Below are positions 5,488 through 61,392 of a DNA stretch of 64,000 nt, in pieces (positions within the stretch are counted from its first letter, which is position 1; each line of letters begins with the position of its first letter). The stretch comes from Rhynchopus sp. YZ270_cl-10. Lineage: Eukaryota; Euglenozoa; Diplonemea; Diplonemida; Diplonemidae. Position numbers and translations under genes: made by a program. Location: assembly GCA_964035575.1 (NCBI GenBank), contig OZ037843.1:1426001-1490000 (forward strand). Direction: 5' to 3'. The notes below the pieces were generated by a model. The model made no database searches and was not told where the DNA came from. It worked only from the letters and a program-made list of their open reading frames with translations.

Positions 5488-8097
5488 ATGGTGTCATGCG
5501 GGATCCAGTCGCTGACAATACTGCTGTGTGTGGTGCTGATTCTGTCGACAGGTGCGATCATCGGTGGCTTCACTCTGTCAACATGGGACGACCTTCTGGA
5601 GAAGGCACGTGACACAGGTGATGAGGGCTTCGGGATGTGTCTCGACAGTGGTACGGCGGACATCGAAACGGTCTCGGCACGTTACCTGCGCTCCGTTCTT
5701 GGCAGTGTGGATATGGCAGTGAAGGAGTACCTGAAGGTGCCTGAGCAGCTCGTGATATCGCTCGCCACCCTGGCACAGGCGTACCACCCAAACATCAGCA
5801 CGAGCCCCGACTTTGCTAATATAATGCGTCCTTCAGTCTTGTCTGCTTTTAAGGCTGGGATGGCTGCTGGGGTCCTACAGATCAGTCACGAAACGTACCC
5901 GTGGTGTGCGGCACATCCTGTTCCGTGGAAGAGGGGTGACGGGTTTGCAGGGTGGGGATCGCAGTTCTCGCATTTTGCCAATAACCCTGGGAGAAGTGTC
6001 CTTCCGACAAATGGCAGTGCCGTGTTCATGGTGGTCGAGACACGTGACCACATAACGATGTCGCATGGACTGGGTGACTGGGCCCTGTTCACGGAAGTCG
6101 ACGAGCTAGGAAACTACAAGTACGGCTCTGAGCCATGCAACCTGCAGCGTCCTGACTACAACAAAGGCGAAGTGCAGGGTATGTGCATATACCCCCTCGC
6201 GTTGACTGCACTTCCGGGCGACCCGATGGTTGCCCAACGTGGGAGACAGATGTACTACCTGGCTGCCGACGAGCCACCACTCAACCCTGCAGACACGCTT
6301 GTCTACGCACAAATGCAACTTCAGTGGGGACGAATGATATGGGAGCTGAGCTACACCTACACCCACCCAGATATGTACACGATGTACCCCAAACAGGGCA
6401 AGCGTGTAGGCGTTGTCACTACCACCATTACTGGGAATGGGGTAACCGACGTGGTGCGTGCACAGCTGCTCCCGAAGGACACGTCGTTGTACCTGGTGGA
6501 GGAGGACCATGCATCTGGTTCAGTGGGGACAGTTGTCGCGTACAACAGAGGACGGCAGATTAAGATTGTGCGCCTGCTCACCTCACTGAACGTCTGGGTA
6601 AACACTGCGGTTAGCGTCAACATAACGAACCACTCGATGGAAGACGCGACGTCGCACATCCCCTCAGTGATTGCAGAGCACGGACGGTTTGTGTTCACAC
6701 ACCCGCAGAACTACAGAGACCTTGTGGAGAAGACAGAGGACTCCTTCCTGAAGTGGTCTGACTCGAACGGCACGGAGTTCTGGACAATCACGTCGACAAT
6801 TGAACACAGAACGATCCTGTGGTATGCGAACCTTCTTGTGCCTCGGGCGTCTGTGATGGATACGATTGATGCGTCGACGAATGCAATCCGTGCGAAGGTG
6901 GCATCAGATCTGTCCTCTGCAGACGCACAGAAGGAGGATGCGGTGACTGTGATGGTGATTGTGACGGCTGTTGCGGTGATAGGACTTCTTGCCATTGCTG
7001 TTGTGTTCACACGCTACATCACGTCACCTCTGCTGAAGCTTGGGAGTGAGATGGCAAGTGTGGCTGTGATGGACCTGGAGGCTGTGGACACGGGCCGTGC
7101 AGTGTCGCAGCTGAGTGAGGTGGGGGTGATGCAGCGCAGCTTTGTTACCATGGTGGCGAACCTGGTGGAGTACCGGAACTACATGCCGCAGAGTGTGCTT
7201 GTCAACGACAGTGACAAAGAAGGGTCCGTGAAAGAGTCCTCACGGGAGACGATGTCGCAGTCGGGCATGTCACAAACGAAAACCAACGCCACTTCTGCTG
7301 AAACAATGCAGGCACAGAAGGCACTGCTGCGTGTGGAAGGGATGAAGAAGAAGAAGGTGTCTCTGGCACACATGAACGTCGTGTCGTGGCACGCCTTCTG
7401 CAAGAAGCACAAGGACGCAGAGGTGCTCTCCGCACACGCAGGTGTGATTGAGAGGATCCTGACAGCAGTGCAGCACAACAAGGGTGTGTGCGACACGTTT
7501 GCTGGCGACAAGATGCTTGCCACCTTCAACGCCTTTGTTCCGAAGCCGTCGCACAGTGTTTCCTGTGTGAAGGCTGCACACGAAGCAGCAACAGCACTTG
7601 GTGACGTGCACACGATCTCGTATGGATGCACGACAGGCGAGGCACGTGTCGGGAACATGGGTTGCAACGGGATGAAGAAGGTGTCGATTCTTTCGCAGTC
7701 CATGTCGTGGGTGGTTGTGCTTGAGCGTTGGAACAAGAAGCACAACCTTCCTGGTGTCATTGACCGCAATGTGTCACGTGAGACGGAGGGACAGGTGGTG
7801 CTCCGTTGTGCAGGTGCTGTGCTGTACGAGAAGTTCAGTGAGAAGGTGCAGACTGTGTTTGCTGTGAAGGGTCTGTGCAGCAGCGAAAACGAGGAGTGGA
7901 TGTACCAGCTGGAGTCTGCCTCAAACAACCCGCACGCACTGTGGAACGAGGTCTTCGAGCACATCATCAGACAGGACTTTGAGAAGGCGTCTTCTCTGCT
8001 GGACAGCGTCGCTCAGGACCAACGCACACCTTACGAAGAGCTTGTGGGCTATGTGCGGGAGAAGGCTTATGCACCGTACGTTGCACGTTTGCACTGA
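5488..8097 (+). CDS. Family 1 receptor pseudo-cyclase, 869 aa
   Basis: The start ATG at 5488 (context AAAACAATGG) is chosen because all full paralogues align from MVSCGIQ; the upstream in-frame extension is leader sequence. Segments in order: membrane segment or signal anchor (residues about 6-28), a large ectodomain with several N-x-S/T sites (about 30-480), a second membrane segment (about 485-510), a HAMP-like juxtamembrane helix, the YRNYMPQSV motif before a variable linker, and a class III nucleotidyl cyclase-like domain (about 620-750). An EEWMYQ tail follows near residue 803. The layout is that of a plasma-membrane sensor. In the cyclase-like domain the second metal Asp (GDK, about 673) is kept, but the first is Asn (HMNVVSW), and SQSMSWVVVLE replaces the usual GDxVNxAxRLE. 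Activity is therefore doubtful. Ligand unknown. Confidence 0.92.
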   Translation: MVSCGIQSLTILLCVVLILSTGAIIGGFTLSTWDDLLEKARDTGDEGFGMCLDSGTADIETVSARYLRSVLGSVDMAVKEYLKVPEQLVISLATLAQAYHPNISTSPDFANIMRPSVLSAFKAGMAAGVLQISHETYPWCAAHPVPWKRGDGFAGWGSQFSHFANNPGRSVLPTNGSAVFMVVETRDHITMSHGLGDWALFTEVDELGNYKYGSEPCNLQRPDYNKGEVQGMCIYPLALTALPGDPMVAQRGRQMYYLAADEPPLNPADTLVYAQMQLQWGRMIWELSYTYTHPDMYTMYPKQGKRVGVVTTTITGNGVTDVVRAQLLPKDTSLYLVEEDHASGSVGTVVAYNRGRQIKIVRLLTSLNVWVNTAVSVNITNHSMEDATSHIPSVIAEHGRFVFTHPQNYRDLVEKTEDSFLKWSDSNGTEFWTITSTIEHRTILWYANLLVPRASVMDTIDASTNAIRAKVASDLSSADAQKEDAVTVMVIVTAVAVIGLLAIAVVFTRYITSPLLKLGSEMASVAVMDLEAVDTGRAVSQLSEVGVMQRSFVTMVANLVEYRNYMPQSVLVNDSDKEGSVKESSRETMSQSGMSQTKTNATSAETMQAQKALLRVEGMKKKKVSLAHMNVVSWHAFCKKHKDAEVLSAHAGVIERILTAVQHNKGVCDTFAGDKMLATFNAFVPKPSHSVSCVKAAHEAATALGDVHTISYGCTTGEARVGNMGCNGMKKVSILSQSMSWVVVLERWNKKHNLPGVIDRNVSRETEGQVVLRCAGAVLYEKFSEKVQTVFAVKGLCSSENEEWMYQLESASNNPHALWNEVFEHIIRQDFEKASSLLDSVAQDQRTPYEELVGYVREKAYAPYVARLH

Positions 8098-9662
8098 AGT
8101 GCGGAACTGATACATGGTAATATTTTCCTGTGCCTGTGACCTGAGTGCAACCGATATGCACCGAGTTTATGATTGGTTCTAAATTTTTACACAAAAATGC
8201 AGATTGTACTTTCCAGTCACCCTCTTCTGCAGTAAGGCCTCACTGGGGTAGTCCCCTCTACTTAGAAAGGCTAGCATATTTTTTTACACGTGTGTGTGGT
8301 ATCCTTTTCCCCTTCTTTTCAAAACCAGGGCGGTACCGAAGTCCGATAACTTCAAAACCAGTCGATTTTACACATTTCTGATGTTTCTGGGCGCATTTGG
8401 ACCCCTGTGACCACCATGTAAAACACCCTACAGACCCCACGAACAACATTTTATTATTTACACGTTCTTGATCTAGGTGAGGAAGCGTTCCAACTCTTAG
8501 CCCCCTCTTCCCCTATTTTTCCATTCGTGATTTTTCCTCCCATTACCCCCGTTTTTTTACAACAGAGTCTGTTCATTAATATTTTCTGCTCCTTGGCTTT
8601 CTTCGTTGACTTTGCGAAGGTGACTGCATTGACAGCTACAGGTTGTCACCCTGTCGTAGGCGAAATTTTTTTTTTTTTTGGCAACCCTGTATAAAATCCC
8701 AACGCAATTTTTTTTTTTTTTGGCAACTTTCATTTTCCAAAAATCAGGGACAGGGACAGGTTTTTAGAAATGGCCCTGACTGCATGTCCCTAAAAAAAGG
8801 GTAGACTTTGGCTCCGTGCTCTTATTACTTCCCAGCTTGCTTTGGTGGGGTTGTCAGGGTCTTTAGTCACCAAAAACATCCACACTTTCTGTGGGGAACC
8901 ACCGTACGTTTTCCTCATCCAGTATGCTACCTACACCTTCCAATGAAAGGGTACACGACTGTTAAAATGTGGATTACGACAATCCGGATTAATAATCCAC
9001 ATTGTGTTGCATTATCCAGATGGTCCACATTGAAACCACTACCAAGCATTCCTAGCTTTTTCTGTTTGTATTAAATTGTTTGATTGAAATATTTTTTATG
9101 TTTTTTCCCCACCCCCGCAAACAAAAAAAAGACAAACAGGAGAGGTGGTGAAAAGCACCCTAGTTTCGAGTGCGAAACGTTTGTGCACGGGAAACAATAT
9201 GACAAACAGGTGCAGGGTGGTTCCGTGCATATCATAGAACCTGGCACCTTGTGTGTCTCCCAAAAAAACCAAAAGCGTTCTGTGTGTAGTTTTGAAGGAA
9301 GGAAAAATAAAAGCACAATCAAATACTCACACAGAAAAATCAAAAATACCGGTTTCCGCCCTTTTTGATTTGCATCATCTCACACCTGTGCTCTGTAGCA
9401 GATAGCAAGAGTTTTGTTGTGTTCTTCATTAATTGCGTGATTTTTGTGTTATTTCATGCGAAGTGGCTTTACAGTCAAATGACAAATAGATATAGGACTA
9501 CATGGTTGGGGTGCACCGGTACACAGGGAATGTACCAAGGCACACTTTGTTTGCGCCAGAAAGTCCTTTTTGTCCCTAAAAAACAGAAAGTGGAGACAGC
9601 ACAACTGTGGCAACAACCGAGGTAACTACACTAGTCCAATGAAGATGAAATACACCCCCATA
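8098..9662. other. Spacer between two family 1 genes
   Basis: No gene is seen. Bases 8210-8330 match 12500-12640 downstream of the next paralogue (GCAGTAAGGCCTCACTGGGG and beyond), so the 3' flank was duplicated with the gene. A 90-bp repeat starting GGTGAGGAAGCGTT (8472-8570) recurs at about 47175-47265 and 47676-47770. The motif ACCAAGGCACACTTTG near 9536 belongs to a dispersed + strand repeat also seen near 22898, 33104 and 63018. Confidence 0.6.
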
Positions 9663-9757
9663 CCCACATACTTTTGCCTTGTCTTGCATCCTGTCTGTCC
9701 CCTCACCACACCACACATCCCCAGACACTCACTTCCTTTTCTGCACACCTCAGAACA
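9663..9757 (+). promoter_or_regulatory. Conserved 5' leader of family 1 receptor gene
   Basis: Same leader as at 5391-5487, with a few substitutions: CCCACATACTTTTGCC, CTTGTCTTGCATCCTGT, CCCCAGACACTC, then a pyrimidine-rich run and CAGAACAATGG. Conservation stops just upstream, which suggests that the duplicated unit begins here. Confidence 0.6.
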
Positions 9758-12379
9758 ATGGTGTCATGCGGGATCCAGTCGCTGACAATACTGCTGTGTG
9801 TGGTGCTGATTCTGTCGACAGGTGCGATCATCGGTGGCTTCACTCTGTCAACATGGGACGACCTTCTGGAGAAGGCACGTGACACAGGTGATGAGGGCTT
9901 CGGGATGTGTCTCGACAGTGGTACGGCGGACATCGAAACGGTCTCGGCACGCTACCTGCGCTCTGTTCTTGGCAGTGTGGATATGGCAGTGAAGGAGTAC
10001 CTGAAGGTGCCTGAGCAGCTCGTGGTCTCGCTCGCCTCCCTGGCACAGGCGTACCACCCAAACATCAGCACGAGCCCCGACTTTGCTAATATAATGCGTC
10101 CTTCAGTCTTGTCTGCTTACAAGGCTGGGATGGCTGCTGGCCTTCTCCAGATCGGTCATGAAGCGTACCCGTGGTGTGCGGCACATCCTGTTCCGTGGAA
10201 GAAGGGTGACGGGTTTGCAGGGTGGGGCTCGCAGTTCTCCCATTTTGTGGGAAGTAATAGGAGAGCGCTGCAACCGACAAATGGCACGCAACTCTTCATG
10301 GTGCTCGAGACACGTGACCACATAACGATGTCGCATGGACTGGGTGACTGGGCGCTCTACACGGAAGTCGACGCGCTAGGAAACTACAAGTATGGCTCTG
10401 AGCCATGCACACTGCGTCCTGACTACAACAAAGGCGAAGTGCATGGGATGTGCATATTCCCCTTAGAGGTGACTGCACTTCCGGGCGACCCGATGGTTGC
10501 CCAGCGTGGGAGACAGATGTATTACCTGGGTGCCGACGAGCCACCACTCAACCCTGCAGACACGCTTGTCTACTCACGCATGGCACTTCAGTGGGGTGTC
10601 ATGATATGGGAGCTCACGTACACGTACACCCACCCAGATATGTACACGATGCACCCCAAGCAGGGCAAGCGTGTGGGTGTTGTCATAGCCACCGTGACTG
10701 CACGTGGGGTAACCGACGTGGTGCGTGCACAGCTGCTCCCGAAGGACACGTCGCTGTACCTGGTGGAGGACGACCGTGTGTCTGGATCAGTGGGGATAGT
10801 TGTTGCGTACAACAGAGGACGGCACATAAAGACTGTGCCCGTGCTAAGCCAACTGGGTCACTGGGAGTCAGCTGCAGTTAGCGTCAACATAACGAACCAC
10901 TCGATGGAAGACGCGACGTCACACATCCCCTCAGTGATTGCAGAGCACGGACGGTTTGTGTTCACACACCCGCAGAACTACAGAGACCTTGTGGAGAAGA
11001 CAGAGGACTCCTTCCTGAAGTGGTCTGACTCGAACGGCACGGAGTTCTGGACAATCACGTCGACAATTGAACACAGAACGATCCTGTGGTATGCGAACCT
11101 TCTTGTGCCTCGGGCGTCTGTGATGGATACGATTGATGCGTCGACGAATGCAATCCGTGCGAAGGTGGCATCAGATCTGTCCTCTGCAGACGCACAGAAG
11201 GAGGATGCGGTGACTGTGATGGTGATTGTGACGGCTGTTGCGGTGATCGGACTTCTTGCCATTGCTGTTGTGTTCACACGCTACATCACGTCACCTCTGC
11301 TGAAGCTTGGGAGAGAGATGGCAAGTGTGGCTGTGATGGACCTGGAGGCTGTGGACACGGGCCGTGCAGTGTCGCAGCTGAGTGAAGTGGGGATGATGCA
11401 GCGCAGCTTTGTTACCATGGTGGCGAACCTGGTGGAGTACCGGAACTACATGCCGCAGAGTGTGCTTGTCAACGAGAGTGAGGGACCACAAGAAGAGTCA
11501 TCACGATCATGCGGCACGATGTCGCAGTCAGGCAGGTCACGCTTGACACGTGTGACTGCGAAAACTAACGCCACTTCTGCTGCTACGTTGCAGGCACAGA
11601 AGGCACTACTACGTGTGGAAGGGATGAAGAAGAAGAAGGTGTCGCTGGCACACATGAACGTCGTGTCGTGGCACGCCTTCTGCAAGAAGCACAAGGACGC
11701 AGAGGTGCTCTCCGCACACGCAGGTGTGATTGAGAGGATCCTGACAGCAGTGCAGCACAACAAGGGTGTGTGCGACACGTTCTCTGGCGACAAGATGCTT
11801 GCCACCTTCAACGCCTTTGTTCCGAAGTCGTCACACAGTGTTGCCTGTGTGAAGGCTGCACACGAAGTAGCAACAGCACTTGGTGACGTACACAAGATCT
11901 CGTATGGGTGCACGACAGGCGAGGCACGTGTCGGGAACATGGGTTGCAACGGGATGAAGAAGGTGTCGATTCTTTCGCAGTCCATGTCGTGGGTGGTTGT
12001 GCTTGAGCGTTGGAACAAGAAGCACAACCTTCCTGGTGTCGTTGACCGCAACGTATCACGTGAGTTGGAAGGACAGGTGGTGCTCCGTTGTGCAGGTGCT
12101 GTGCTGTACGAGAAGTTCAGTGAGAAGGTGCAGACTGTGTTTGCTGTGAAGGGTCTGTGCAGCAGCGAAAACGAGGAGTGGATGTACCAGCTGGAGTCTG
12201 CCTCAAACAACCCGCACGCACTGTGGAACGAGGTCTTCGAGCACATCATCAAACAGGACTTTGAGAAGGCGTCTTCTCTGCTGGACAGCGTCGCTCAGGA
12301 CCAACGCACACCTTACGAAGAGCTTGTGGGCTATGTGAGGGAGAAGGCTTATGCACCGTACGTTGCACGTTTGCACTGA
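9758..12379 (+). CDS. Family 1 receptor pseudo-cyclase, 873 aa
   Basis: Paralogue of 5488-8097, with the same start (MVSCGIQSLTILLC) and the same order: N-terminal membrane segment, ectodomain, second membrane segment (about residue 484-510), juxtamembrane helix, linker, cyclase-like domain (about 625-755) and EEWMYQ tail (about 807). The first 110 residues and everything from the membrane-proximal ectodomain onward are nearly identical to the neighbour. Differences cluster in the ectodomain core (such as HFVGSNRRALQPTNG) and in the linker after YMPQSVLVNE. GDK keeps the second metal Asp; the first is Asn, and the VNxAxR motif is lost (SMSWVVV). An intact single-exon gene, probably a sensor that signals without making a cyclic nucleotide, though a heteromeric partner could restore activity. 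Confidence 0.92.
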   Translation: MVSCGIQSLTILLCVVLILSTGAIIGGFTLSTWDDLLEKARDTGDEGFGMCLDSGTADIETVSARYLRSVLGSVDMAVKEYLKVPEQLVVSLASLAQAYHPNISTSPDFANIMRPSVLSAYKAGMAAGLLQIGHEAYPWCAAHPVPWKKGDGFAGWGSQFSHFVGSNRRALQPTNGTQLFMVLETRDHITMSHGLGDWALYTEVDALGNYKYGSEPCTLRPDYNKGEVHGMCIFPLEVTALPGDPMVAQRGRQMYYLGADEPPLNPADTLVYSRMALQWGVMIWELTYTYTHPDMYTMHPKQGKRVGVVIATVTARGVTDVVRAQLLPKDTSLYLVEDDRVSGSVGIVVAYNRGRHIKTVPVLSQLGHWESAAVSVNITNHSMEDATSHIPSVIAEHGRFVFTHPQNYRDLVEKTEDSFLKWSDSNGTEFWTITSTIEHRTILWYANLLVPRASVMDTIDASTNAIRAKVASDLSSADAQKEDAVTVMVIVTAVAVIGLLAIAVVFTRYITSPLLKLGREMASVAVMDLEAVDTGRAVSQLSEVGMMQRSFVTMVANLVEYRNYMPQSVLVNESEGPQEESSRSCGTMSQSGRSRLTRVTAKTNATSAATLQAQKALLRVEGMKKKKVSLAHMNVVSWHAFCKKHKDAEVLSAHAGVIERILTAVQHNKGVCDTFSGDKMLATFNAFVPKSSHSVACVKAAHEVATALGDVHKISYGCTTGEARVGNMGCNGMKKVSILSQSMSWVVVLERWNKKHNLPGVVDRNVSRELEGQVVLRCAGAVLYEKFSEKVQTVFAVKGLCSSENEEWMYQLESASNNPHALWNEVFEHIIKQDFEKASSLLDSVAQDQRTPYEELVGYVREKAYAPYVARLH

Positions 12380-36789: not shown

Positions 36790-38490
36790 ATGGGCTGTCT
36801 CGAGCGTGCACTGTCGCTTGACGGGACACTGGACACGCAAAGCAGACACATACGAAAGCTGTACTTTATGTTCAGCTGCCTATCGCTTGCAGCGTCCTGC
36901 GTCTTCTTCCTGTCTCAATCGTTGACATACCGTGACAGGTACATCATCGTGGGAGGTCTACTCCTCGCTGCTGTCGGAAGCTTGTCTTCTGTGCTGCTCG
37001 TGCTATTCAAGTTCAAAGTGACGACGTACATGGTCATAGCGTACGGCGGACTGTACACTCTTGTGATGTTGGGAAGCGATCTGACTACACGCGCTGAGTA
37101 CATGCACACCTGGCCAATGATAATACTGATCGTGGACTTTTTTCTTGTAATGCAGGTGCCCACACGGTACAGCACAGGTGTCGTGGTGTGCACACTGGTG
37201 TATTTGGTGGTTGTTGCTGCAGAAGAAACGTGGAGGTTTGGTCTGCTCGACATGCCTGGGCTTGTGCTTCAAGAGCATCGACGTTCCTACACGGACACCC
37301 TGGGTGACTGTGATGTGCTGCCCTGCAAGCAGAGCCGGGCTGTGAAGCAACTTCTGGCTGCAGTCGTCGTCTTCGTCCTTGACTTCCTCGCAACGCGTGG
37401 CTTTGCACGCGGTCTCCTGAAGGAGCAGGCATCAATGACGCGCACAATTGCGACAGTGCAGGACATCGCCTCGCTCCTTGCTGGCTATGATGTGGAGAAG
37501 GTGGCGGAGCTGCTGGACGAGTACGGTGGTGAGTTGCCGGAGGGGATGACAGCGGCACTGCGGAAGTTGGAGCAGAACCTGCGTATGTACAAGGCTTACC
37601 TCCCGCAGACGTGTCTGCCGTTTGGGTGTGCGGAACCTGGTAGTGAGCAGGATGGTACTGACAGTGACGATTTAAGCACAGTCTCAGCATCAGGGTCGGT
37701 CACGTCTGCTGGAGTGCGACGCACTTCCATACGGCTGCAGCCTCTCCTGCTCTCATCCACAAAGACAACACTGCTGACACTGAACATCAAAGACACCCTG
37801 CACCGCCTGGAGGAGGACAGTGCACGCTTCTCCGACCTCTTCACAGCTGTTCTTCTGAAGACCCTGCAGGTAACGGACAGCAGACGTGGGATGGTGGACG
37901 TCTTTGTTGGTGACAGGATCCACTGCTCGTTCAACACGTCAAGGCAGTGTGCGTCGCACGCAACCTCAGCACTGCACGCAGCAAGCATGCTCATGAAAGC
38001 TGGCGTGGCAGCCTCTGTGAACGTGGGTGTTGCGACTGGGAAGGTGCTGCGTGGTGACATGGGTTGTGATGTGATGCGCCGCTTCAGCATGGTGGGGACA
38101 CTTGTGCGTGACGTGCACGGGATGGAACGTGCAGGACGTATGCTGGGGTGCGACGTTCTCTGCAACCGTCTTTGCTTCAGCGATACTGAGTGTGAACACG
38201 ACTTGCGTCTGCTTCCGTGCAAGGTGGAGGTTGCCTCTGGCTGTGAGGCACAACCTGTGGCTGAGCTGGTTTCGAAGGAACCGAACAACTCAACAGCAGA
38301 CGAATGGATGTACCAGATCGGCGGGAAGAAGCATTGGGAGGACTACAACATAGTGGTGCGTGGGTACCTGCGTGGTGAGAGCCGTGACACAGACGTTGCG
38401 AAGGCGTGGGTGGAGGCGGGTGGGAGTGGCACACCAGCACACGCAGTTCCTTCCGGGACGTGCAGTGTTGTGTGTTCCTATCTGCGATGA
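36790..38490 (+). CDS. Family 2 six-TM pseudo-cyclase, copy B, 566 aa
   Basis: Intact reference copy, starting MGCLERALSLDGTLDTQSRH. Hydrophobic segments lie at about residues 25-43, 50-72, 77-95, 107-123, 126-146 and 188-208. A loop of about 40 residues between the fifth and sixth carries DCDVLPC. Then come a helix (about 215-250), RMYKAYLPQTCLPF, an acidic linker, a class III cyclase-like domain (about 320-470) and the tail with DEWMYQIGGKKHWED (about 504). The second metal Asp is present (VGDRIHCSFN, about 374). The first is Asn (TLNIKD), and the transition-state Asn/Arg positions read FSMVGTLVRDVHGMER. The family resembles membrane-bound cyclases in plan, but the sites argue against normal catalysis. 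Probably a membrane regulator or receptor. Confidence 0.92.
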   Translation: MGCLERALSLDGTLDTQSRHIRKLYFMFSCLSLAASCVFFLSQSLTYRDRYIIVGGLLLAAVGSLSSVLLVLFKFKVTTYMVIAYGGLYTLVMLGSDLTTRAEYMHTWPMIILIVDFFLVMQVPTRYSTGVVVCTLVYLVVVAAEETWRFGLLDMPGLVLQEHRRSYTDTLGDCDVLPCKQSRAVKQLLAAVVVFVLDFLATRGFARGLLKEQASMTRTIATVQDIASLLAGYDVEKVAELLDEYGGELPEGMTAALRKLEQNLRMYKAYLPQTCLPFGCAEPGSEQDGTDSDDLSTVSASGSVTSAGVRRTSIRLQPLLLSSTKTTLLTLNIKDTLHRLEEDSARFSDLFTAVLLKTLQVTDSRRGMVDVFVGDRIHCSFNTSRQCASHATSALHAASMLMKAGVAASVNVGVATGKVLRGDMGCDVMRRFSMVGTLVRDVHGMERAGRMLGCDVLCNRLCFSDTECEHDLRLLPCKVEVASGCEAQPVAELVSKEPNNSTADEWMYQIGGKKHWEDYNIVVRGYLRGESRDTDVAKAWVEAGGSGTPAHAVPSGTCSVVCSYLR

Positions 38491-38963: not shown

Positions 38964-38995
<32 letters not shown>

Positions 38996-39335: not shown

Positions 39336-41048
39336 ATGGGCTGTCTCGAGCGTGCACTGTCGCTTGACGGGACACTGGACACGCAAAGCAGACACATACG
39401 AAAGCTGTACTTTATGTTCAGCTGCCTATCGTTTGCAGCGTCCTCTCTGTTCTTCTTGTCTCAGGCGTTGACATACCGTGACAGGTACGTCCTCGTGGGA
39501 GGACTAATTGTCGGCGCTGTCGGCAGCTTGTGTTCTGTCCTGGCCGTTCTGTTCAAGTTCAAAGTGACGACGTACATGGTCATAGCGTGCGGCGGACTGT
39601 ACACTCTTGTGATGTTGGGAAGCGATCTGACTACACGCGCTGAGTACATACACACCTGGCCAATGATGGTACTGATCGTGGACTTTCTGCTTGTAATGCA
39701 GGTGCCCACACGGTACAGCACAGGTGTCGTGGTGTGCACACTGGTGTATTTGGTGGTTGTTGCTGCAGAAGAAACGTGGAGGTTTGGTCTGCTCGACATG
39801 CCTGGGCTTGTGCCTCAAGAGCATCGACGTTCCTACACGGACACCCTGGGTGACTGTGATGTGCTGCCCTGCAAGCAGAGCCGGGCTGTGAAGCAACTTC
39901 TGGCTGCAGTCGTCGTCTTCGTTCTTGACTTCCTCACAACGCGTGGCTTTGCACGCGGTCTCCTGAAGGAGCAGGCATCAATGACGCGCACAATTGCGGC
40001 AGTGCAGGACATCGCCTCGCTCCTTGCTGGCTACGATGTGGAGCAGGTGGCGGAGCTGCTGCAGGCTCATGAGAAAGAGCTGCCCGAGGGGATGGCGGCA
40101 GCACTGCGGAAGCTGGAACAGAACCTGCGTATGTACAAGGCGTACCTCCCGCAGACGTGTCTGCCGTTTGCTGTGGTGAAGGAGCAATGTGTGGAACCTG
40201 GTGGTGAGCAGGATGGTACTGACAGTGACGATCCAAGCACAGTCTCAGCATCAGGGTCGGTCACGTCTGCTGCAGTGCGACGCACTTCCATACGGCTGCA
40301 GCCTCTCCTGCTCTCATCCACAAAGGCAACACTGCTGACACTGAACATCAAAGACACCCTGCACCGCCTGGAGGAGGACAGTGCACGCTTCTCCGACCTC
40401 TTCACAGCTGTTCTTCTGAAGACCCTGCAGGTAACAGACAGCAGTGGGATGGTGGACGTCTTTGTTGGGGACAGGATCCACTGCTCGTTCAACACGTCAA
40501 GGCAGTGTGCGTCGCACGCAACCTCAGCACTGCACGCAGCAAGCATGCTCATGAGAGCTGGCGTGGCAGCCTCTGTGAACGTGGGTGTTGCGACTGGGAA
40601 GGTGCTGCGTGGTGACATGGGTTGTGATGTGATGCGCCGCTTCAGCATGGTGGGGACACTTGTGCGTGACGTGCACGGGATGGAACGTGCAGGACGTATG
40701 CTGGGGTGCGACGTTCTCTGCAACCGTCTTTGCTTCAGCGACGCTGAGTGTGAACACGACTTGCGTCTGCTTCCGTGCAAGGTGGAGGTTGCCTCTGGCT
40801 GTGAGGCACAACCTGTGGCTGAGCTGGTTTCGAAGGAACCGAACAACTCAACAGCAGACGAATGGATGTACCAGATCGGCGGGAAGAAGCACTGGGAGGA
40901 CTACAACATAGTGGTGCGTGGGTACCTGCGTGGTGAGTGCCGTGACACAGACGTTGCGAAGGCGTGGGTGGAGGCGGGTGGGAGTGGCACACCAGCACAC
41001 GCAGTTCCTTCCGGGACGTGCAGTGTTGTGTGTTCCTATCTGCGATGA
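39336..41048 (+). CDS. Family 2 six-TM pseudo-cyclase, copy C, 570 aa
   Basis: Intact third tandem copy. The membrane part is almost identical to copy B, with small changes (LIVGAVGSLCSVLAVLF, VLIVDFLLVMQ). It differs most around DVEQVAELLQAHEKELPEGM and in the linker (AVVKEQCVEPGGEQDGTDSD). The cyclase-like domain has TLNIKD, VGDRIHCSFN and SMVGTLVRDVHGMER; the tail has DEWMYQIGGKKHW (about residue 508). Only about 86 bp of 5' flank is shared with copy B, from TCTGTGCAATGTTTC; further upstream lies the unrelated repeat 39058-39231. It may therefore be expressed differently or not at all. Confidence 0.92.
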   Translation: MGCLERALSLDGTLDTQSRHIRKLYFMFSCLSFAASSLFFLSQALTYRDRYVLVGGLIVGAVGSLCSVLAVLFKFKVTTYMVIACGGLYTLVMLGSDLTTRAEYIHTWPMMVLIVDFLLVMQVPTRYSTGVVVCTLVYLVVVAAEETWRFGLLDMPGLVPQEHRRSYTDTLGDCDVLPCKQSRAVKQLLAAVVVFVLDFLTTRGFARGLLKEQASMTRTIAAVQDIASLLAGYDVEQVAELLQAHEKELPEGMAAALRKLEQNLRMYKAYLPQTCLPFAVVKEQCVEPGGEQDGTDSDDPSTVSASGSVTSAAVRRTSIRLQPLLLSSTKATLLTLNIKDTLHRLEEDSARFSDLFTAVLLKTLQVTDSSGMVDVFVGDRIHCSFNTSRQCASHATSALHAASMLMRAGVAASVNVGVATGKVLRGDMGCDVMRRFSMVGTLVRDVHGMERAGRMLGCDVLCNRLCFSDAECEHDLRLLPCKVEVASGCEAQPVAELVSKEPNNSTADEWMYQIGGKKHWEDYNIVVRGYLRGECRDTDVAKAWVEAGGSGTPAHAVPSGTCSVVCSYLR

Positions 41049-43710: not shown

Positions 43711-46341
43711 ATGGTGTCGTGCGGGATCCAGTCGCTGACAATACTGCTGTGTGTGGTGCTGATTCTGTCGACAGGTGCGATCATCGGTGGCTTCACTCTG
43801 TCAACATGGGACGACCTTCTGGAGAAGGCACGTGACACAGGTGATGAGGGCTTCGGGATGTGTCTCGACAGTGGTACGGCGGACATCGAAACGGTCTCGG
43901 CACGCTACCTGCGCTCCGTCCTTGGCAGTGTGGAAACGGCAGTGAAGGAGTACCTGAAGGTGCCTGAGCAGCTCGTGGTCTCGCTTGCCACCCTGGCGAA
44001 GGCACACCACCCAGACCTCACCACAAACCCCTCCTGGTCGGCTTCACATTTGCGTCCTGCAATCATGTCTGCCTATATCGCCGGGAAGATGGCTGGGGTC
44101 GACTATATCTCGCTAGAAACGTACCCGTGGTGCAATGCACACCCCTTTCATTGGAAGAGGGGTGACGGGTTTGCAGGGTGGGGCTCGCGGACTGGGTTCA
44201 GGGACGTAAACCCTGCGAGCGGTGTCACGCCTGCGAACGGCAGCATGGTGGTGATAGTGTACGAGCAACTTGACCTTGCGACGCTGGCGAGAGGGAGGGG
44301 GGACTGGGCTGCCTACACCGAAAGCGGCAACGTGGGCCAATTCAAGTTCCCGAACGAGCCGTGCAACCACATGCCTGACTACAACAAGGGCGAGGTACGT
44401 GGGCTGTGCGTCTACTCCATGGCGATGATGGAACCGTTGAAGTCGCGAAGTGAGGAGCAACGTGGGAGGGTGCTGTACAACATAGAGGACAGCGCACCAG
44501 ATCTCTACCCGGCGGACACGCTTGTCTACGATTCGCTGGTGGTGATGTGGGACTTCATGTCGTGGGAGCTCACCTACACCTTCACCCACCCGGACATGTA
44601 CACGATGCGCCCCAAGCAGGGCAAGCGTGTGGGTTCTGTCAACGCCATCCTCACTTCGCACGGGATCGTCGATGCAGTGCGTGCACAGCTGCTCCCGAAG
44701 GACGCGTCGCTGTACATGGTGGAGTGGGTGCGTGCAACAGGTGAAGTGGGGGAACTTGTGGCGTACAACAGAGGACGGCAGCTGCAGTACGTGTGGCGCA
44801 TGGGAGGTCTGGGTGTTGAGACTTTCATGGCAGCCAGCTTCAACATAACGAACCACTCGATGGAAGACGCGACGTCGCACATCCCCTCAGTGATTGCAGA
44901 GCACGGGCGGTTTGTGTTCACACACCCGCAGAACTACAGAGACCTTGTGGAGAAGACAGAGGACTCCTTCCTGAAGTGGTCTGACTCGAACGGCACGGAG
45001 TTCTGGACAATCACGTCGCCAATTGAACACAGAACGATTGCGTGGTACGTGAACCTTCTTGTACCAAGGACGTCTGTGATGGAGACGATTGATGCGTCGA
45101 CGAATGCAATCCGTGCGAAGGTGGCATCAGATCTGTCCTCTGCAGACGCACAGAAGGAGGATGCGGTGACTGTGATGGCGATTGTGACGGCTGTTGCAGT
45201 CATCGGACTTCTTGCCATTGCTGTTGTGTTCACACGCTACATCACGTCACCTCTGCTGAAGCTTGGGAGTGAGATGGCAAGTGTGGCTGTGATGGACCTG
45301 GAGGCTGTGGACACGGGCCGTGCAGTGTCGCAGCTGAGTGAGGTGGGGATGATGCAGCGCAGCTTTGTTACCATGGTGGCGAACCTGGTGGAGTACCGGA
45401 ACTACATGCCGCAGAGTGTGCTTGTCAACGAGAGTGAGGAGGAGGAAGAACCCACAGAATCCGAGTCCACGCGGCAGTCGAAAACAAAGGGTGGGTCTGG
45501 TACCTCATCCCGTTCCCGTGCCACGGGCTCGATGGCACAGAGCTCAGAGGTGGTGCAGAACCAGAAGGCACTGCTGCGTGTGGAAGGGATGAAGAAGAAG
45601 AAGGTGTCTCTGGCACACATGAACGTCGTGTCGTGGCACCCCTTCATCAAGAAGCACAAGGACGCAGAGGTGCTCTCCGCACACGCAGGTGTGATTGAGA
45701 GGATCCTGACAGCAGTGCAGCACAACAAGGGTGTGTGCGACACGTTCTCTGGCGACAAGATGCTTGCCACCTTCAACGCCTTTGTTCCCTGCGCCACACA
45801 CCGTGTTGCCTGTGTGAAGGCTGCACACGAAGCAGCAACAGCACTTGGTGATGTGCACAAGATCTCGTATGGGTGCACGACAGGCGAGGCACGTGTCGGG
45901 AACATGGGTTGCAACGGGATGAAGAAGGTGTCGATTCTTTCGCAGTCCATGTCGTGGGTGGTTGTGCTTGAGCGTTGGAACAAGAAGCACAACCTGCAGG
46001 GTGTCATCGACCGCAATGTGTCACGTGAGACGGAGGGACAGGTACTGGCACGTTGTGTCGGTGCTGTGCTGTTCGAGAAGTTCAGTGACAAGGTGCAGCC
46101 TGTGTATGCTGTGAAGGGTCTGTGCAGCAGCGAAAACGAGGAGTGGATGTACCAGCTGGAGTCCGCAAAGAACCCTGATGAACTGTGGAACGAGGTCTTC
46201 GAGCACATCATCAAACAGGACTTTGAGAAGGCGTCTTCTCTGCTTGACGGTGAGCCTGCAGACCAACGTCAGAAGTACGAAGAGCTTGTCGGCTATGTGG
46301 CGGCGAAGGCTTACGCCCCTCTAGTTGTGGACATGCACTGA
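43711..46341 (+). CDS. Family 1 receptor pseudo-cyclase, 876 aa, ectodomain type 2
   Basis: Starts MVSCGIQ like the others. The first 105 or so residues and everything from FNITNHSMEDATSHIPSV onward follow genes 5488 and 9758 closely. The ectodomain core between (about 110-390) is much more divergent (TNPSWSASHLRPAIMSAYIA, VVIVYEQLDLATLARGRGDW), as is the acidic/Ser linker (ESEEEEEPTESESTRQSK). Second membrane segment about 485-510; cyclase-like domain about 630-760 with HMNVVSW and SGDKMLATF; EEWMYQ tail about 811. It presumably recognises a different ligand from the type 1 copies but sends the same signal. The protein is identical to that of 51736-54366. Confidence 0.93.
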   Translation: MVSCGIQSLTILLCVVLILSTGAIIGGFTLSTWDDLLEKARDTGDEGFGMCLDSGTADIETVSARYLRSVLGSVETAVKEYLKVPEQLVVSLATLAKAHHPDLTTNPSWSASHLRPAIMSAYIAGKMAGVDYISLETYPWCNAHPFHWKRGDGFAGWGSRTGFRDVNPASGVTPANGSMVVIVYEQLDLATLARGRGDWAAYTESGNVGQFKFPNEPCNHMPDYNKGEVRGLCVYSMAMMEPLKSRSEEQRGRVLYNIEDSAPDLYPADTLVYDSLVVMWDFMSWELTYTFTHPDMYTMRPKQGKRVGSVNAILTSHGIVDAVRAQLLPKDASLYMVEWVRATGEVGELVAYNRGRQLQYVWRMGGLGVETFMAASFNITNHSMEDATSHIPSVIAEHGRFVFTHPQNYRDLVEKTEDSFLKWSDSNGTEFWTITSPIEHRTIAWYVNLLVPRTSVMETIDASTNAIRAKVASDLSSADAQKEDAVTVMAIVTAVAVIGLLAIAVVFTRYITSPLLKLGSEMASVAVMDLEAVDTGRAVSQLSEVGMMQRSFVTMVANLVEYRNYMPQSVLVNESEEEEEPTESESTRQSKTKGGSGTSSRSRATGSMAQSSEVVQNQKALLRVEGMKKKKVSLAHMNVVSWHPFIKKHKDAEVLSAHAGVIERILTAVQHNKGVCDTFSGDKMLATFNAFVPCATHRVACVKAAHEAATALGDVHKISYGCTTGEARVGNMGCNGMKKVSILSQSMSWVVVLERWNKKHNLQGVIDRNVSRETEGQVLARCVGAVLFEKFSDKVQPVYAVKGLCSSENEEWMYQLESAKNPDELWNEVFEHIIKQDFEKASSLLDGEPADQRQKYEELVGYVAAKAYAPLVVDMH

Positions 46342-51686: not shown

Positions 51687-54486
51687 CACCACACATCCCC
51701 AGACACTCTCTTCCCTTTCTGTACACCTCAGAACAATGGTGTCATGCGGGATCCAGTCGCTGACAATACTGCTGTGTGTGGTGCTGATTCTGTCGACAGG
51801 TGCGATCATCGGTGGCTTCACTCTGTCAACATGGGACGACCTTCTGGAGAAGGCACGTGACACAGGTGATGAGGGCTTCGGGATGTGTCTCGACAGTGGT
51901 ACGGCGGACATCGAAACGGTCTCGGCACGCTACCTGCGCTCCGTCCTTGGCAGTGTGGAAACGGCAGTGAAGGAGTACCTGAAGGTGCCTGAGCAGCTCG
52001 TGGTCTCGCTTGCCACCCTGGCGAAGGCACACCACCCAGACCTCACCACAAACCCCTCCTGGTCGGCTTCACATTTGCGTCCTGCAATCATGTCTGCCTA
52101 TATCGCCGGGAAGATGGCTGGGGTCGACTATATCTCGCTAGAAACGTACCCGTGGTGCAATGCACACCCCTTTCATTGGAAGAGGGGTGACGGGTTTGCA
52201 GGGTGGGGCTCGCGGACTGGGTTCAGGGACGTAAACCCTGCGAGCGGTGTCACGCCTGCGAACGGCAGCATGGTGGTGATAGTGTACGAGCAACTTGACC
52301 TTGCGACGCTGGCGAGAGGGAGGGGGGACTGGGCTGCCTACACCGAAAGCGGCAACGTGGGCCAATTCAAGTTCCCGAACGAGCCGTGCAACCACATGCC
52401 TGACTACAACAAGGGCGAGGTACGTGGGCTGTGCGTCTACTCCATGGCGATGATGGAACCGTTGAAGTCGCGAAGTGAGGAGCAACGTGGGAGGGTGCTG
52501 TACAACATAGAGGACAGCGCACCAGATCTCTACCCGGCGGACACGCTTGTCTACGATTCGCTGGTGGTGATGTGGGACTTCATGTCGTGGGAGCTCACCT
52601 ACACCTTCACCCACCCGGACATGTACACGATGCGCCCCAAGCAGGGCAAGCGTGTGGGTTCTGTCAACGCCATCCTCACTTCGCACGGGATCGTCGATGC
52701 AGTGCGTGCACAGCTGCTCCCGAAGGACGCGTCGCTGTACATGGTGGAGTGGGTGCGTGCAACAGGTGAAGTGGGGGAACTTGTGGCGTACAACAGAGGA
52801 CGGCAGCTGCAGTACGTGTGGCGCATGGGAGGTCTGGGTGTTGAGACTTTCATGGCAGCCAGCTTCAACATAACGAACCACTCGATGGAAGACGCGACGT
52901 CGCACATCCCCTCAGTGATTGCAGAGCACGGGCGGTTTGTGTTCACACACCCGCAGAACTACAGAGACCTTGTGGAGAAGACAGAGGACTCCTTCCTGAA
53001 GTGGTCTGACTCGAACGGCACGGAGTTCTGGACAATCACGTCGCCAATTGAACACAGAACGATTGCGTGGTACGTGAACCTTCTTGTACCAAGGACGTCT
53101 GTGATGGAGACGATTGATGCGTCGACGAATGCAATCCGTGCGAAGGTGGCATCAGATCTGTCCTCTGCAGACGCACAGAAGGAGGATGCGGTGACTGTGA
53201 TGGCGATTGTGACGGCTGTTGCAGTCATCGGACTTCTTGCCATTGCTGTTGTGTTCACACGCTACATCACGTCACCTCTGCTGAAGCTTGGGAGTGAGAT
53301 GGCAAGTGTGGCTGTGATGGACCTGGAGGCTGTGGACACGGGCCGTGCAGTGTCGCAGCTGAGTGAGGTGGGGATGATGCAGCGCAGCTTTGTTACCATG
53401 GTGGCGAACCTGGTGGAGTACCGGAACTACATGCCGCAGAGTGTGCTTGTCAACGAGAGTGAGGAGGAGGAAGAACCCACAGAATCCGAGTCCACGCGGC
53501 AGTCGAAAACAAAGGGTGGGTCTGGTACCTCATCCCGTTCCCGTGCCACGGGCTCGATGGCACAGAGCTCAGAGGTGGTGCAGAACCAGAAGGCACTGCT
53601 GCGTGTGGAAGGGATGAAGAAGAAGAAGGTGTCTCTGGCACACATGAACGTCGTGTCGTGGCACCCCTTCATCAAGAAGCACAAGGACGCAGAGGTGCTC
53701 TCCGCACACGCAGGTGTGATTGAGAGGATCCTGACAGCAGTGCAGCACAACAAGGGTGTGTGCGACACGTTCTCTGGCGACAAGATGCTTGCCACCTTCA
53801 ACGCCTTTGTTCCCTGCGCCACACACCGTGTTGCCTGTGTGAAGGCTGCACACGAAGCAGCAACAGCACTTGGTGATGTGCACAAGATCTCGTATGGGTG
53901 CACGACAGGCGAGGCACGTGTCGGGAACATGGGTTGCAACGGGATGAAGAAGGTGTCGATTCTTTCGCAGTCCATGTCGTGGGTGGTTGTGCTTGAGCGT
54001 TGGAACAAGAAGCACAACCTGCAGGGTGTCATCGACCGCAATGTGTCACGTGAGACGGAGGGACAGGTACTGGCACGTTGTGTCGGTGCTGTGCTGTTCG
54101 AGAAGTTCAGTGACAAGGTGCAGCCTGTGTATGCTGTGAAGGGTCTGTGCAGCAGCGAAAACGAGGAGTGGATGTACCAGCTGGAGTCCGCAAAGAACCC
54201 TGATGAACTGTGGAACGAGGTCTTCGAGCACATCATCAAACAGGACTTTGAGAAGGCGTCTTCTCTGCTTGACGGTGAGCCTGCAGACCAACGTCAGAAG
54301 TACGAAGAGCTTGTCGGCTATGTGGCGGCGAAGGCTTACGCCCCTCTAGTTGTGGACATGCACTGAGCTACACACACATGGCTCTCGGGTATCCGAGGGC
54401 ACGTTCTCTTGTTTGCTTCTTTGCTGTGCGGTCATGAACTCTGGCACACCTTCCATTACACGATCTTAACTTCATGTTGTATTTTT
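51687..54486 (+). repeat. 2.8-kb near-identical duplicate of 43662-46461
   Basis: Homology begins at CACCACACATCCCCAG (51687 and 43662, offset 8025) and ends in the TTGTATTTTT run (54486 and 46461). By eye I found one synonymous change (TCG to TCA in codon 3) and two changes in the 3' flank. Sequences outside these limits are unrelated. Confidence 0.95.
51736..54366 (+). CDS. Family 1 receptor pseudo-cyclase, 876 aa, identical to 43711-46341
   Basis: Encodes exactly the same protein as 43711-46341: type 2 ectodomain, second membrane segment, HMNVVSW/SGDK cyclase-like domain and EEWMYQ tail. Only the proximal 49 bases of the 5' leader were copied. The distal TTTTGCCTTGTCTTGCAT block is replaced by a D1-related repeat (51540-51680), so the promoter or splice context differs. 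The copy is intact and recent, or kept uniform by gene conversion. Function as for its twin. Confidence 0.93.
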   Translation: MVSCGIQSLTILLCVVLILSTGAIIGGFTLSTWDDLLEKARDTGDEGFGMCLDSGTADIETVSARYLRSVLGSVETAVKEYLKVPEQLVVSLATLAKAHHPDLTTNPSWSASHLRPAIMSAYIAGKMAGVDYISLETYPWCNAHPFHWKRGDGFAGWGSRTGFRDVNPASGVTPANGSMVVIVYEQLDLATLARGRGDWAAYTESGNVGQFKFPNEPCNHMPDYNKGEVRGLCVYSMAMMEPLKSRSEEQRGRVLYNIEDSAPDLYPADTLVYDSLVVMWDFMSWELTYTFTHPDMYTMRPKQGKRVGSVNAILTSHGIVDAVRAQLLPKDASLYMVEWVRATGEVGELVAYNRGRQLQYVWRMGGLGVETFMAASFNITNHSMEDATSHIPSVIAEHGRFVFTHPQNYRDLVEKTEDSFLKWSDSNGTEFWTITSPIEHRTIAWYVNLLVPRTSVMETIDASTNAIRAKVASDLSSADAQKEDAVTVMAIVTAVAVIGLLAIAVVFTRYITSPLLKLGSEMASVAVMDLEAVDTGRAVSQLSEVGMMQRSFVTMVANLVEYRNYMPQSVLVNESEEEEEPTESESTRQSKTKGGSGTSSRSRATGSMAQSSEVVQNQKALLRVEGMKKKKVSLAHMNVVSWHPFIKKHKDAEVLSAHAGVIERILTAVQHNKGVCDTFSGDKMLATFNAFVPCATHRVACVKAAHEAATALGDVHKISYGCTTGEARVGNMGCNGMKKVSILSQSMSWVVVLERWNKKHNLQGVIDRNVSRETEGQVLARCVGAVLFEKFSDKVQPVYAVKGLCSSENEEWMYQLESAKNPDELWNEVFEHIIKQDFEKASSLLDGEPADQRQKYEELVGYVAAKAYAPLVVDMH

Positions 54487-57842: not shown

Positions 57843-57925
57843 ATTCTCATCATATCCCTGAGCCGCACCGTAAAAAGTACCTCATAACCACTCGCTTTTA
57901 TCTGTTCACCCCATCCCTCTTTTTT

Positions 57926-59349: not shown

Positions 59350-60288
59350 ATGTACACACTCTCCCTCCTACTGGCACCTCTCCTGCTGCAAGAGACAGAT
59401 GCCGTGCCGCTCAAGCCTATCCGCATCATGGGCGTCTTCACCAGATCACCACCCATAGCACCGCATCAGAACTCGTGGATGCCGTTGGTTCCTTGCCCCT
59501 CTATAGGCGAGTGCTACAAGGGTGGGTATCCCGCAATCGCTGCGTGGATGGAGTACTATTCAAACCCGGCAGAGGTGCGGGGGACAGTCAAGGTGATGAC
59601 GCCAGATTTTAAGTCGCGGATGATCTTTGGACACCCGCTGGGGTTGGATCTGAACCATGAAACGTGGAGGCGGCTGGGTGTGGACTTTGCAACACTTTCC
59701 GACGAGCATTTAATGAGCAACTCCAAAGACGATCTGGCAACAGAGCTGTTCCTCGTGAACAGTCCTGCCCCGATCTGCCTAGCGGGGGTCGTCGTGGACA
59801 ACCACTTTCCGTACCTCTCCGGGGTGTTCGCGTCGTCGCATGTAAAGGTTGTGGACGGTGTGTCCTTAGGTCTGTTCACGTTATGGGCATCGAAATTTGG
59901 TGGCAGATCTGGCGAAGTCATATCATATGATAAAATCATTCCGATTGTAACAAGACGGCTTCGTGCGTTGGGTGTCGACATCATCATCGCCCTGCGTATT
60001 GGCTTCGCAAGCGAAGAAGGCGAAATATTGAACCTGCCCGCATACGACATCGACCTTGCTGTACAGAACACCGATTGGGATGTCGACACCTTCACTGCTA
60101 ATGGCACCACGGTGCTTGCTGCGCATGACTTACAATCCTCTAATGCATACCCTTTGGTTTCCGTCGACCTTGTGCAGGACGGTGCTGCCTGGAGCTACTC
60201 CGTGCACGAGGTGAACCCCTGGAAGAATGATCCCCCAAAGGGCAATGCGGACCCCTTCTACCTGCAGGAGCTGCAGAGGCGCATTTGA
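59350..60288 (+). CDS. Family 3 receptor, N-terminal part: 5'-nucleotidase-like ectodomain
   Basis: The ATG at 59350 follows long pyrimidine tracts and CACAACACT and gives a signal peptide (MYTLSLLLAPLLLQETDA). The 300-residue domain follows the 5'-nucleotidase/metallophosphatase plan: GGYPAIAAWMEYY, LGVDFATLSDEHL (where the family has GNHEFD), LRALGVDIIIALRIGF (family: IIALTHLG) and LPAYDIDLAVQNTD (family: GGHTH). The expected metal ligands are replaced at each of these sites and at the N-terminal NDxH site (GVFTR), so the domain should bind rather than cleave. The frame stops at 60286, and coding sense continues in another frame from about 60315. Either a frameshift or a 104-base intron (60211-60314, GTGAAC...CCACAG, phase 0) would explain this. 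Confidence 0.7.
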   Translation: MYTLSLLLAPLLLQETDAVPLKPIRIMGVFTRSPPIAPHQNSWMPLVPCPSIGECYKGGYPAIAAWMEYYSNPAEVRGTVKVMTPDFKSRMIFGHPLGLDLNHETWRRLGVDFATLSDEHLMSNSKDDLATELFLVNSPAPICLAGVVVDNHFPYLSGVFASSHVKVVDGVSLGLFTLWASKFGGRSGEVISYDKIIPIVTRRLRALGVDIIIALRIGFASEEGEILNLPAYDIDLAVQNTDWDVDTFTANGTTVLAAHDLQSSNAYPLVSVDLVQDGAAWSYSVHEVNPWKNDPPKGNADPFYLQELQRRI

Positions 60289-60314
60289 AGCGGCAGGTAT
60301 CGATTACACCACAG

Positions 60315-61292
60315 AAGTATGGGAGGATTACTTACGACTTCACTGCGACATCGTTGCTGATCGTAAACCAGACGAAGTACGACTGCACAGAGGACCAGAA
60401 GTACGACGCGTATTGGCAGAATTGCGAGAACTGCCCTGAGGGCTTTTGGCACCCAGACATCGACAGCCCTGGGTGTGTGGAGAAGCTGCCTGAGGAGGTG
60501 GACATTGGGATGATCCTTGGCATCGTGTTTGGTGTTCTCTCTGTGTGTGGGGTGCCTGTTGCATGGAAGATATCAGAGAAGCAGCGCCGCATCAACGCGC
60601 TCTTCAACAACAACAAGATTGCAGAGGAATGTGCCATCGCGGTGATGGACCTCCGTCTTGGCGACCTCGATTACCTCCACGAGCTGGAGAAGCCGAACAC
60701 GATTCAGTCTGCGTTCATCGCCATCACGAAGCAGATGAAGGTGTACATGGAGTTTATGCCTAAGAATTTGATTGCAAATTGTCAAGGAAGTGGTTCCGAA
60801 TCAGGCTCGATTGCGCTTTCAGGCTCTGCATCTTCTCGGACGGAGAGTGTGGCCAGTAGGGCGAGCAGGGATGAACGAGCGAGGCGTCGCTCTGTGGTGC
60901 AGGCGAAGGGGAGCCAAAAGCTGACCACGACCTTCCTCAGGAAGAAGCACATCACGGCGCTGGCACTGAACAGCAAGGGGCATCTCAAGAGCATTAGTGG
61001 CGACGTCCTGGCGAAGCATTCGCGGTTTCTCGAGAAGGTAACGACCATCATTACTGCATACAAAGGCATCGCCGAGACACTGAGCGGCGACAGGATGCTC
61101 GCCATGTGGAACACTGTGAACGACACTGCCGGCCAAGCTGCGTACTCCTGCGATGCTGCGCTTGCACTGCAGTTGATACAGGACGGCGTCACAGCGAACG
61201 TCGGCATCGCAAAGGGTTCTGCACAGTTCGGTCTGTTTGGCGGGGAAGGCACAAAACGGTATATTTTCCCACGTGTGCAGTGCACAGTCTAG
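60315..61292 (+). CDS. Family 3 receptor, C-terminal part: membrane segment and cyclase-like domain
   Basis: Continues the gene at 59350 in another frame: KYGRITYDFTATSLLIV, a Cys-rich juxtamembrane stretch (CENCPEGFWHPDIDSPGC), one membrane segment (GMILGIVFGVLSVCGVPVAW), a cytosolic helix, MKVYMEFMPKNLI (equivalent of YRNYMPQSV in family 1), a Ser/Arg linker and a class III cyclase-like domain. ALALNSKGHL has Asn for the first metal Asp; SGDRMLAMWN keeps the second. The frame ends early at TAG 61290, in the middle of the domain, after GTKRYIFPRVQCTV. Homology resumes in yet another frame just downstream, so the gene is probably a pseudogene unless introns are removed. Confidence 0.7.
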   Translation, partial: KYGRITYDFTATSLLIVNQTKYDCTEDQKYDAYWQNCENCPEGFWHPDIDSPGCVEKLPEEVDIGMILGIVFGVLSVCGVPVAWKISEKQRRINALFNNNKIAEECAIAVMDLRLGDLDYLHELEKPNTIQSAFIAITKQMKVYMEFMPKNLIANCQGSGSESGSIALSGSASSRTESVASRASRDERARRRSVVQAKGSQKLTTTFLRKKHITALALNSKGHLKSISGDVLAKHSRFLEKVTTIITAYKGIAETLSGDRMLAMWNTVNDTAGQAAYSCDAALALQLIQDGVTANVGIAKGSAQFGLFGGEGTKRYIFPRVQCTV

Positions 61293-61293
61293 T

Positions 61294-61392
61294 TTTCACC
61301 TTATCAAAACTGGGGCAGCAGCCACAGTCTTGGACAGGTGTGCAGGCGACGCAGTCCCCTTTTGCCAGCGTGAACAAATATCCTCAATATGA
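61294..61392 (+). pseudogene. Out-of-frame continuation of the family 3 cyclase-like domain
   Basis: The frame reading LIKTGAAATVLDRCAGDAVP and FCQREQISSI, to TGA 61392, lines up with SMVGTLVRDVHGMERAGRML and GCDVLCNRLC of family 2. No removal of a plausible GT-AG intron restores it, so a small indel near 61260-61300 is likely. The EWMYQ tail of the other families was not found here. Confidence 0.5.

Follow-up and report, generated by a model that had tools for sequence, protein, structure and literature searches.

Receptor families of the diplonemid Rhynchopus sp. YZ270_cl-10 share a probable pseudo-cyclase output module

Receptor adenylate cyclases of the ESAG4/GRESAG4 type form a large multigene family in trypanosomatids. 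Passages of PMC6027212 describe them as surface receptors whose intracellular cyclase domain is activated by dimerisation. The nearest published design that we found, as reported in PMC8519429, is Trypanosoma brucei RDK1 (Tb927.11.14070), in which a TlpQ-like bacterial sensor region is followed by a transmembrane (TM) segment, a predicted class III cyclase-like segment and a kinase, and which is conserved in trypanosomatids and Bodo. Here, we analyse a window of 64,000 nucleotides (nt; contig OZ037843.1, called C11 below, C11:1426001-1490000) from the diplonemid Rhynchopus sp. YZ270_cl-10, whose genome assembly comprises 152.4 Mb in 126 contigs. The receptor genes of the window, which are all on the + strand, are four of family 1, three of family 2 and a broken one of family 3, and an earlier note made from its sequence had claimed that these receptor families share one degenerate class III cyclase module. 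We propose, with a probability of roughly one half, that this module is a non-catalytic cyclase-fold output of single origin, which pairs with active cyclases and regulates them under the control of its sensor.

As in the ESAG4/GRESAG4 proteins described in those passages, a surface receptor carries an intracellular cyclase homology domain. The trypanosomatid receptors combine two Venus-flytrap domains, one TM segment and an active domain, whereas dCACHE, six-TM or nucleotidase sensors precede a probably dead domain here: the ectodomain of family 1 is dCACHE-like, family 2 has a multi-helix membrane part and the catalytic residues are lost. RDK1, as reported, shows the same order of bacterial-type sensor, TM segment and cyclase-like segment but runs on into a protein kinase, whereas the pseudo-module proteins scanned end in an EWMY tail and form large families; no Pfam match to a kinase family was found in the window proteins or in three further module proteins (L075-L077). 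The membrane part of family 2 resembles the six-helix domain of mammalian AC9 and Rv1625c. The ectodomain of family 1 has the same fold as that of the bacterial dCACHE chemoreceptor PctD, although the output is a methyl-accepting domain in PctD and a cyclase fold in family 1.

Fold, active site and constraint of the output module

Pfam reported only HAMP, below the cut-off, for the family 1 window proteins and no match for those of family 2, and no cyclase match up to an E-value of 1 was obtained for the seven family 1 and family 2 window proteins as scanned, so that the cyclase assignment needed other evidence. A structure model confirmed the class III cyclase homology fold for family 1, and structure comparison identified its ectodomain as dCACHE-like; judged from the model, the module almost certainly has a class III cyclase fold. 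A Foldseek search for family 2 gave no match below an E-value of 0.68.

For the catalytic residues, 214 module rows were aligned with four canonical cyclases from the same genome. They comprise all 76 family 1 rows found, 120 of the 286 family 2 proteins found (on which the counts for this family rest), 13 family 3 rows (12 members and L069, a repeat of P0197) and five other modules (L072, L075-L078); eight of the 214 come from EukProt transcriptomes. Among the related transcriptome proteins, one bears the prefix 'Sspe', which we take to stand for Sulcionema specki, a diplonemid named in PMC12621601. Metal site A is Asn in 213 rows (family 1, 76/76; family 2, 119/120; family 3, 13/13; other modules, 5/5) and Ser in the family 2 protein P0194, and metal site B is Asp in all 214. 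The Asn/Asp combination also occurs in the eight transcriptome rows and in all eight window copies, where site B reads GDK or GDR. The base Lys and the transition-state Arg are kept in 0/214 rows, the transition-state Asn is retained in three (two of family 2, one of family 3) and lost in 211, and the base-specificity Asp is kept only by family 3 (13/13). All six catalytic residues, including the Asp at site A, are present in the four canonical rows. Thus, of the residues that mark an active class III cyclase, the module has the site B Asp and lacks the site A Asp and the transition-state Asn/Arg pair, and we consider it very probable from these alignments that it has no cyclase activity.

The motifs listed in the earlier note were recovered at their positions in all eight window copies, and its central observation, Asn at site A with a preserved Asp at site B, extends from these copies to the 214 aligned rows and is not a chance pattern; no conserved Asp appears at site A of the modules when they are aligned with class III cyclases. 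The note had also stated that the transition-state Asn and Arg are replaced in every copy, which is correct for Arg, fails for Asn in the three rows mentioned and does not apply to the family 3 copy of the window, which ends before these positions. The EEWMYQ/DEWMYQ tail that it had assigned to families 1 and 2 is indeed there but is not limited to them, as intact family 3 proteins carry an (E/D)EWMY tail too.

A conservation scan over 197 columns, covering the domain and the start of the tail with the four groups weighted equally, yielded nine columns with at least 99.8% conservation across the groups (N630, G666, G673, D674, N681, G725, W804, M805 and Y806). The five other modules (L072, L075-L078) have these residues as well. 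Both former metal sites are among the nine and hence rank with the best-conserved residues of an otherwise highly variable domain. Five of the nine (N630, N681, G725, M805 and Y806) are found in 0/4 canonical rows, and WMY is fixed in the 214 module rows. Although the profiles of the four groups are only 20-34% identical, each group has the same small set of positions fixed.

Between close copies, the median ratio of nonsynonymous to synonymous substitution rates (dN/dS) in the pseudo-domain was 0.36 for family 1 (27/30 loci) and 0.40 for family 2 (18/30 loci), showing that purifying selection maintains the dead domain; the five lines of this computation used 27, 28, 26, 18 and 11 of 30 loci. 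Among the matches listed, an internal stop occurred in 1/125 for the family 1 module and 0/122 for the family 2 module. When 35 close family 1 paralogues were compared with window copy a, identity was lowest in the ectodomain (residues 151-210, 41-44%) and highest around HAMP and YMPQ (residues 511-570, 96-98%), with 46% in the linker after it, a profile as expected for receptors that diversify their ligands. The dS was 0.088 in the output half and 0.51 in the ectodomain, lower in the output in 229 of 231 pairs, which suggests homogenisation; we give this contrast little weight because the 30 loci were picked by module similarity and 8/30 were dropped for missing anchor motifs. A less biased hint of homogenisation may come from copy a itself, which is 82% identical in the ectodomain and 73% in the module to a gene on C3 and 74% and 91%, respectively, to a gene on C11.

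Probable sensor exchange and origin

At least five kinds of sensor carry the module: the dCACHE ectodomain, the six-TM domain, the 5'-nucleotidase ectodomain (PF02872 in 12/12 family 3 members), a Bmp/PnrA-like domain with an ephrin-receptor-like repeat (L077) and a PA plus laminin-G-like protein (L075). Sensors of the three families also occur with a canonical PF00211 domain, namely that of family 1 in L074, that of family 2 in L073 and the family 3 ectodomain (PF02872) in L070, and a solute-binding protein sensor precedes a canonical domain in L071. In the two cases examined, from families 1 and 2, the homology at the DNA level stops at the YxxY(M/L)P junction. L074 and a pseudo-module gene share 87.7% identity over 1,489 bp up to the junction motif, and 14/14 alignments listed for L074 end at nt 1480, the first codon of YKKFLP; for L073, 14/14 alignments listed (68-70% identical) end at nt 1297, within YRPYLPAALF. 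Among 89 matches to the family 1 sensor, 88 run into the pseudo module and the remaining one is L074, while the 67 matches to the family 2 sensor on C1-C11 lead to the pseudo module in 34 cases and to a canonical domain in 17, with 16 unassigned. Read from these genes, the module sits behind several sensors and can trade places with a canonical cyclase at a single junction.

In a tree of 48 domains (32 modules of the 214 rows, four first and four second tandem domains and eight other canonical domains), a branch with support 80/89 separates all 32 sampled modules from the other domains, and the modules and second tandem domains together are opposite the canonical domains (98/94). The second tandem domains come from the only four canonical tandem genes read; they are degenerate, without the site B Asp, and their profile matches family 2 at 92.8% and the canonical set at 2.4%. 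Their place on the module side of the 98/94 branch means that an active and a dead domain already occur within a single chain. This recalls the C1/C2 arrangement of mammalian transmembrane adenylyl cyclases, in which C2 supplies the Asn/Arg pair: the canonical receptors read here likewise pair an active with a degenerate domain, but the pseudo-modules have lost the Asn (all but 3/214), the Arg and the base Lys. The module groups match each other at 94-100% probability, compared with 0.2-10% for the tandem canonical domain found with the same sensors.

One origin is argued better by the shared fixed residues than by the tree or the topology tests, and the module probably arose once. The idea of one pseudo-cyclase output paired with several sensors, put forward in the earlier note, is supported by the family 1 fold, the fixed positions, the sister genes with canonical output and their junction, and the 80/89 branch. 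The clade with Asn at site A and different N-termini that it anticipated appears as this branch, but approximately unbiased (AU) tests do not reject rival placements.

Genes of the window and genomic arrangement

Family 1 copy a (5488..8097, + strand as for all receptor genes here) was read from its open reading frame (ORF), motifs and structure model. A dCACHE-like ectodomain (5632..6897, model residues 49-470) is followed by a TM segment, a HAMP-like region, YRNYMPQ, the pseudo-cyclase and the EEWMYQ tail. Its YMPQ (7180..7191) is the motif at which, in the junction alignment, sensor homology ends in the gene with canonical output. The class III cyclase fold spans 7339..7884 (model residues 618-799) and contains the Asn codon of metal site A (7375..7377, in HMNVV) and the Asp codon of metal site B (7507..7509, in GDK), both placed by motif and alignment; the EEWMYQ motif lies at 7891..7908. 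The other family 1 genes were read from ORFs and motifs: copy b (9758..12379; HMNVV 11651, GDK 11786, EEWMYQ 12173), copy c (43711..46341; HMNVV 45616, GDK 45751, EEWMYQ 46138) and copy d (51736..54366), a near-identical duplicate of copy c by DNA comparison (2,800 bp shared at 99.9%).

The family 2 genes, likewise read from ORFs and motifs, comprise the six-TM copy a (34654..36294; TLNIKD 35578, GDR 35710, DEWMYQ 36103), copy b (36790..38490; TLNIKD 37777, GDR 37909, DEWMYQ 38299) and copy c (39336..41048; TLNIKD 40338, GDR 40467, DEWMYQ 40857). Compared with copies b and c, copy a has an apparent frameshift near the N-terminus, as read from the ORFs (DNA 94% alike). Copy b has an earlier in-frame ATG at 36715, and its six-TM domain lies at 36829..37440 (residues 39-242 of a 591-residue model counted from that ATG). 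The family 3 copy (59350-61292) is split between two frames: an N-terminal piece with a 5'-nucleotidase-like ectodomain (59350..60288, assigned from ORF, Pfam and relatives), in which Pfam found no 5_nucleotid_C match though relatives match, and a second piece (60231..61292, from ORF, motifs and relatives) with a TM segment, FMPK at 60753, ALNSK at 60963 and GDR at 61086 before it is cut off. The rest of the domain and the tail are missing, and this copy is a decayed gene beside intact receptors. A sulfatase gene (18729-20543; PF00884, E-value 1.9e-38, SGSH_C) lies amid the receptor arrays, and a tandem repeat array with units of ~113 bp that are 92-97% alike occupies 15684-16781.

Genome-wide, the codon pattern for (D/E)EWMY(Q/E) has 378 exact matches (control 1), that for (D/E)EWMY 579 (control 6) and the canonical pattern K-T-I-G-D-(A/S)-F-M 378 (control 0), each being a count of matching places, not all of which were read as genes. 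On C3, C5, C8, C10, C11, C14 and C17, receptor matches in the left part of the contig mostly have the - orientation and those in the right part the + orientation, as if there were one divergent strand switch per contig, with an exception at C11:868-875 kb. Family 3 copies with identical scores recur at a regular spacing of ~16 kb (C8:1290993, 1307445, 1323714, 1340220 and 1355563) and of ~5 kb (C90:1059857-1076248), which suggests recent segmental amplification. A query with 18 bases that we take to be the 3' end of a Diplonema-type spliced leader gave two genomic matches (control 0), L079 (C45:541761) and L080 (C14:1213001), each with an ATG within ~60 bases downstream, as though the genome had taken up copies of trans-spliced mRNAs.

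Proposed mechanism, alternatives and meaning

Under the proposed mechanism, the module would be a unit consisting of the YxxY(M/L)P motif, a variable linker, the cyclase fold with its Asn/Asp pair and the EWMY tail, to which several unrelated sensors would have been joined through swaps at the YxxY(M/L)P motif. Ligand binding would move the pseudo-domain, which may use the cyclase dimer face to pair with a second pseudo-domain or an active cyclase domain. A class III site is built from two domains, one providing the metal Asps and the other the Asn/Arg and base residues. In a dimer of a pseudo-domain and an active domain, one site would miss the Asn/Arg expected from the partner and the other would miss metal site A. 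Since both sites would be incomplete, the simplest reading is a brake under ligand control; the receptor could thus brake or tune cyclic AMP (cAMP) synthesis in response to its ligand. For the heterodimer regulation of active cyclases taken by itself, we would put the chances somewhat below even.

Several results weigh against this proposal. The canonical genes on C11 are no closer to pseudo-module genes (at least 70 pseudo places) than circular shifts give, with 3/23 within 3 kb (shift mean 4.7), 7/23 within 5 kb (6.4) and 11/23 within 10 kb (9.0), and such pairing was rejected. In the full-length model of family 2, the membrane part is good and the cyclase part is of low confidence, and the family 2 profile matches cyclases only at an E-value of 0.12. 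The second domain of the canonical tandem proteins has no Pfam match, its kinship with cyclases rests on the match to family 2, and the sample is four genes. The profile of family 3 fits the broader canonical set (95.1%) as well as it fits family 2 (93.7%), and matches to that set reach 77-79% for family 1 and for the other modules. Finally, the branch uniting the modules reaches only 80/89, the tree program flags long branches meeting between the canonical tandem domains and the rest, and AU tests do not reject family 2 (p 0.31) or family 3 (p 0.22) with canonical cyclases, with p across rival placements at 0.21-0.33.

These test results, together with the canonical match of family 3 and its retained base Asp and the presence, in each of families 1-3, of one or more relatives that have a canonical domain, would suit a history in which every sensor family lost its own active cyclase separately. 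Such independent decay is nevertheless improbable, as the site A Asn, Asn681, Gly725, Met805 and Tyr806 are common to all groups and absent from the canonical rows, and the groups match one another far better than the tandem canonical domain. Still less likely, to a degree that we regard as very improbable, is that the module remains an enzyme that tolerates Asn at site A or makes a different product: the invariant site B Asp, the base Asp of family 3 and the purifying selection would fit, but the Arg and base Lys are absent from every row, the Asn from 211, and the Pfam scan detected no cyclase. The main rival is a repurposed binding domain, in which the dead pocket would still take up a ligand (a nucleotide, cAMP or a metal) and the receptor would signal through the EWMY tail without contacting an active cyclase. 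It explains the invariant Asn/Asp pair better, through a remaining binding role, given that this pair and Asn681 are among the 9/197 fixed positions while most of the domain varies, and the fixed WMY and the 579 tail-pattern places are consistent with signalling through the tail. However, no row keeps the base Lys and only family 3 keeps the base Asp, and we consider this alternative rather unlikely.

Pseudokinases are known regulators. A full-text literature search, whose coverage left out most subscription papers, returned no paper with the word 'pseudocyclase', the main texts of the D. papillatum genome paper and of a subcellular proteome paper contain neither 'cyclase' nor 'receptor', and we found little in print on large receptor families whose main output is a pseudo-cyclase. 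P. papillatum is, according to PMC12621601, a genetically tractable species of the diplonemid group. It is possible, though we advance it only tentatively, that in this lineage a pseudoenzyme has become the core of a receptor system with hundreds of genes, in which catalysis was lost once, a rebuilt Asn/Asp pocket was kept and the resulting standard plug-in was swapped with an active cyclase at a fixed junction. If so, one sensor repertoire would be wired either to cAMP or to a different, perhaps opposing, signal, and the genome would offer natural pairs of active and dead cyclases with the same sensor, in which the role of a dead cyclase could be tested.

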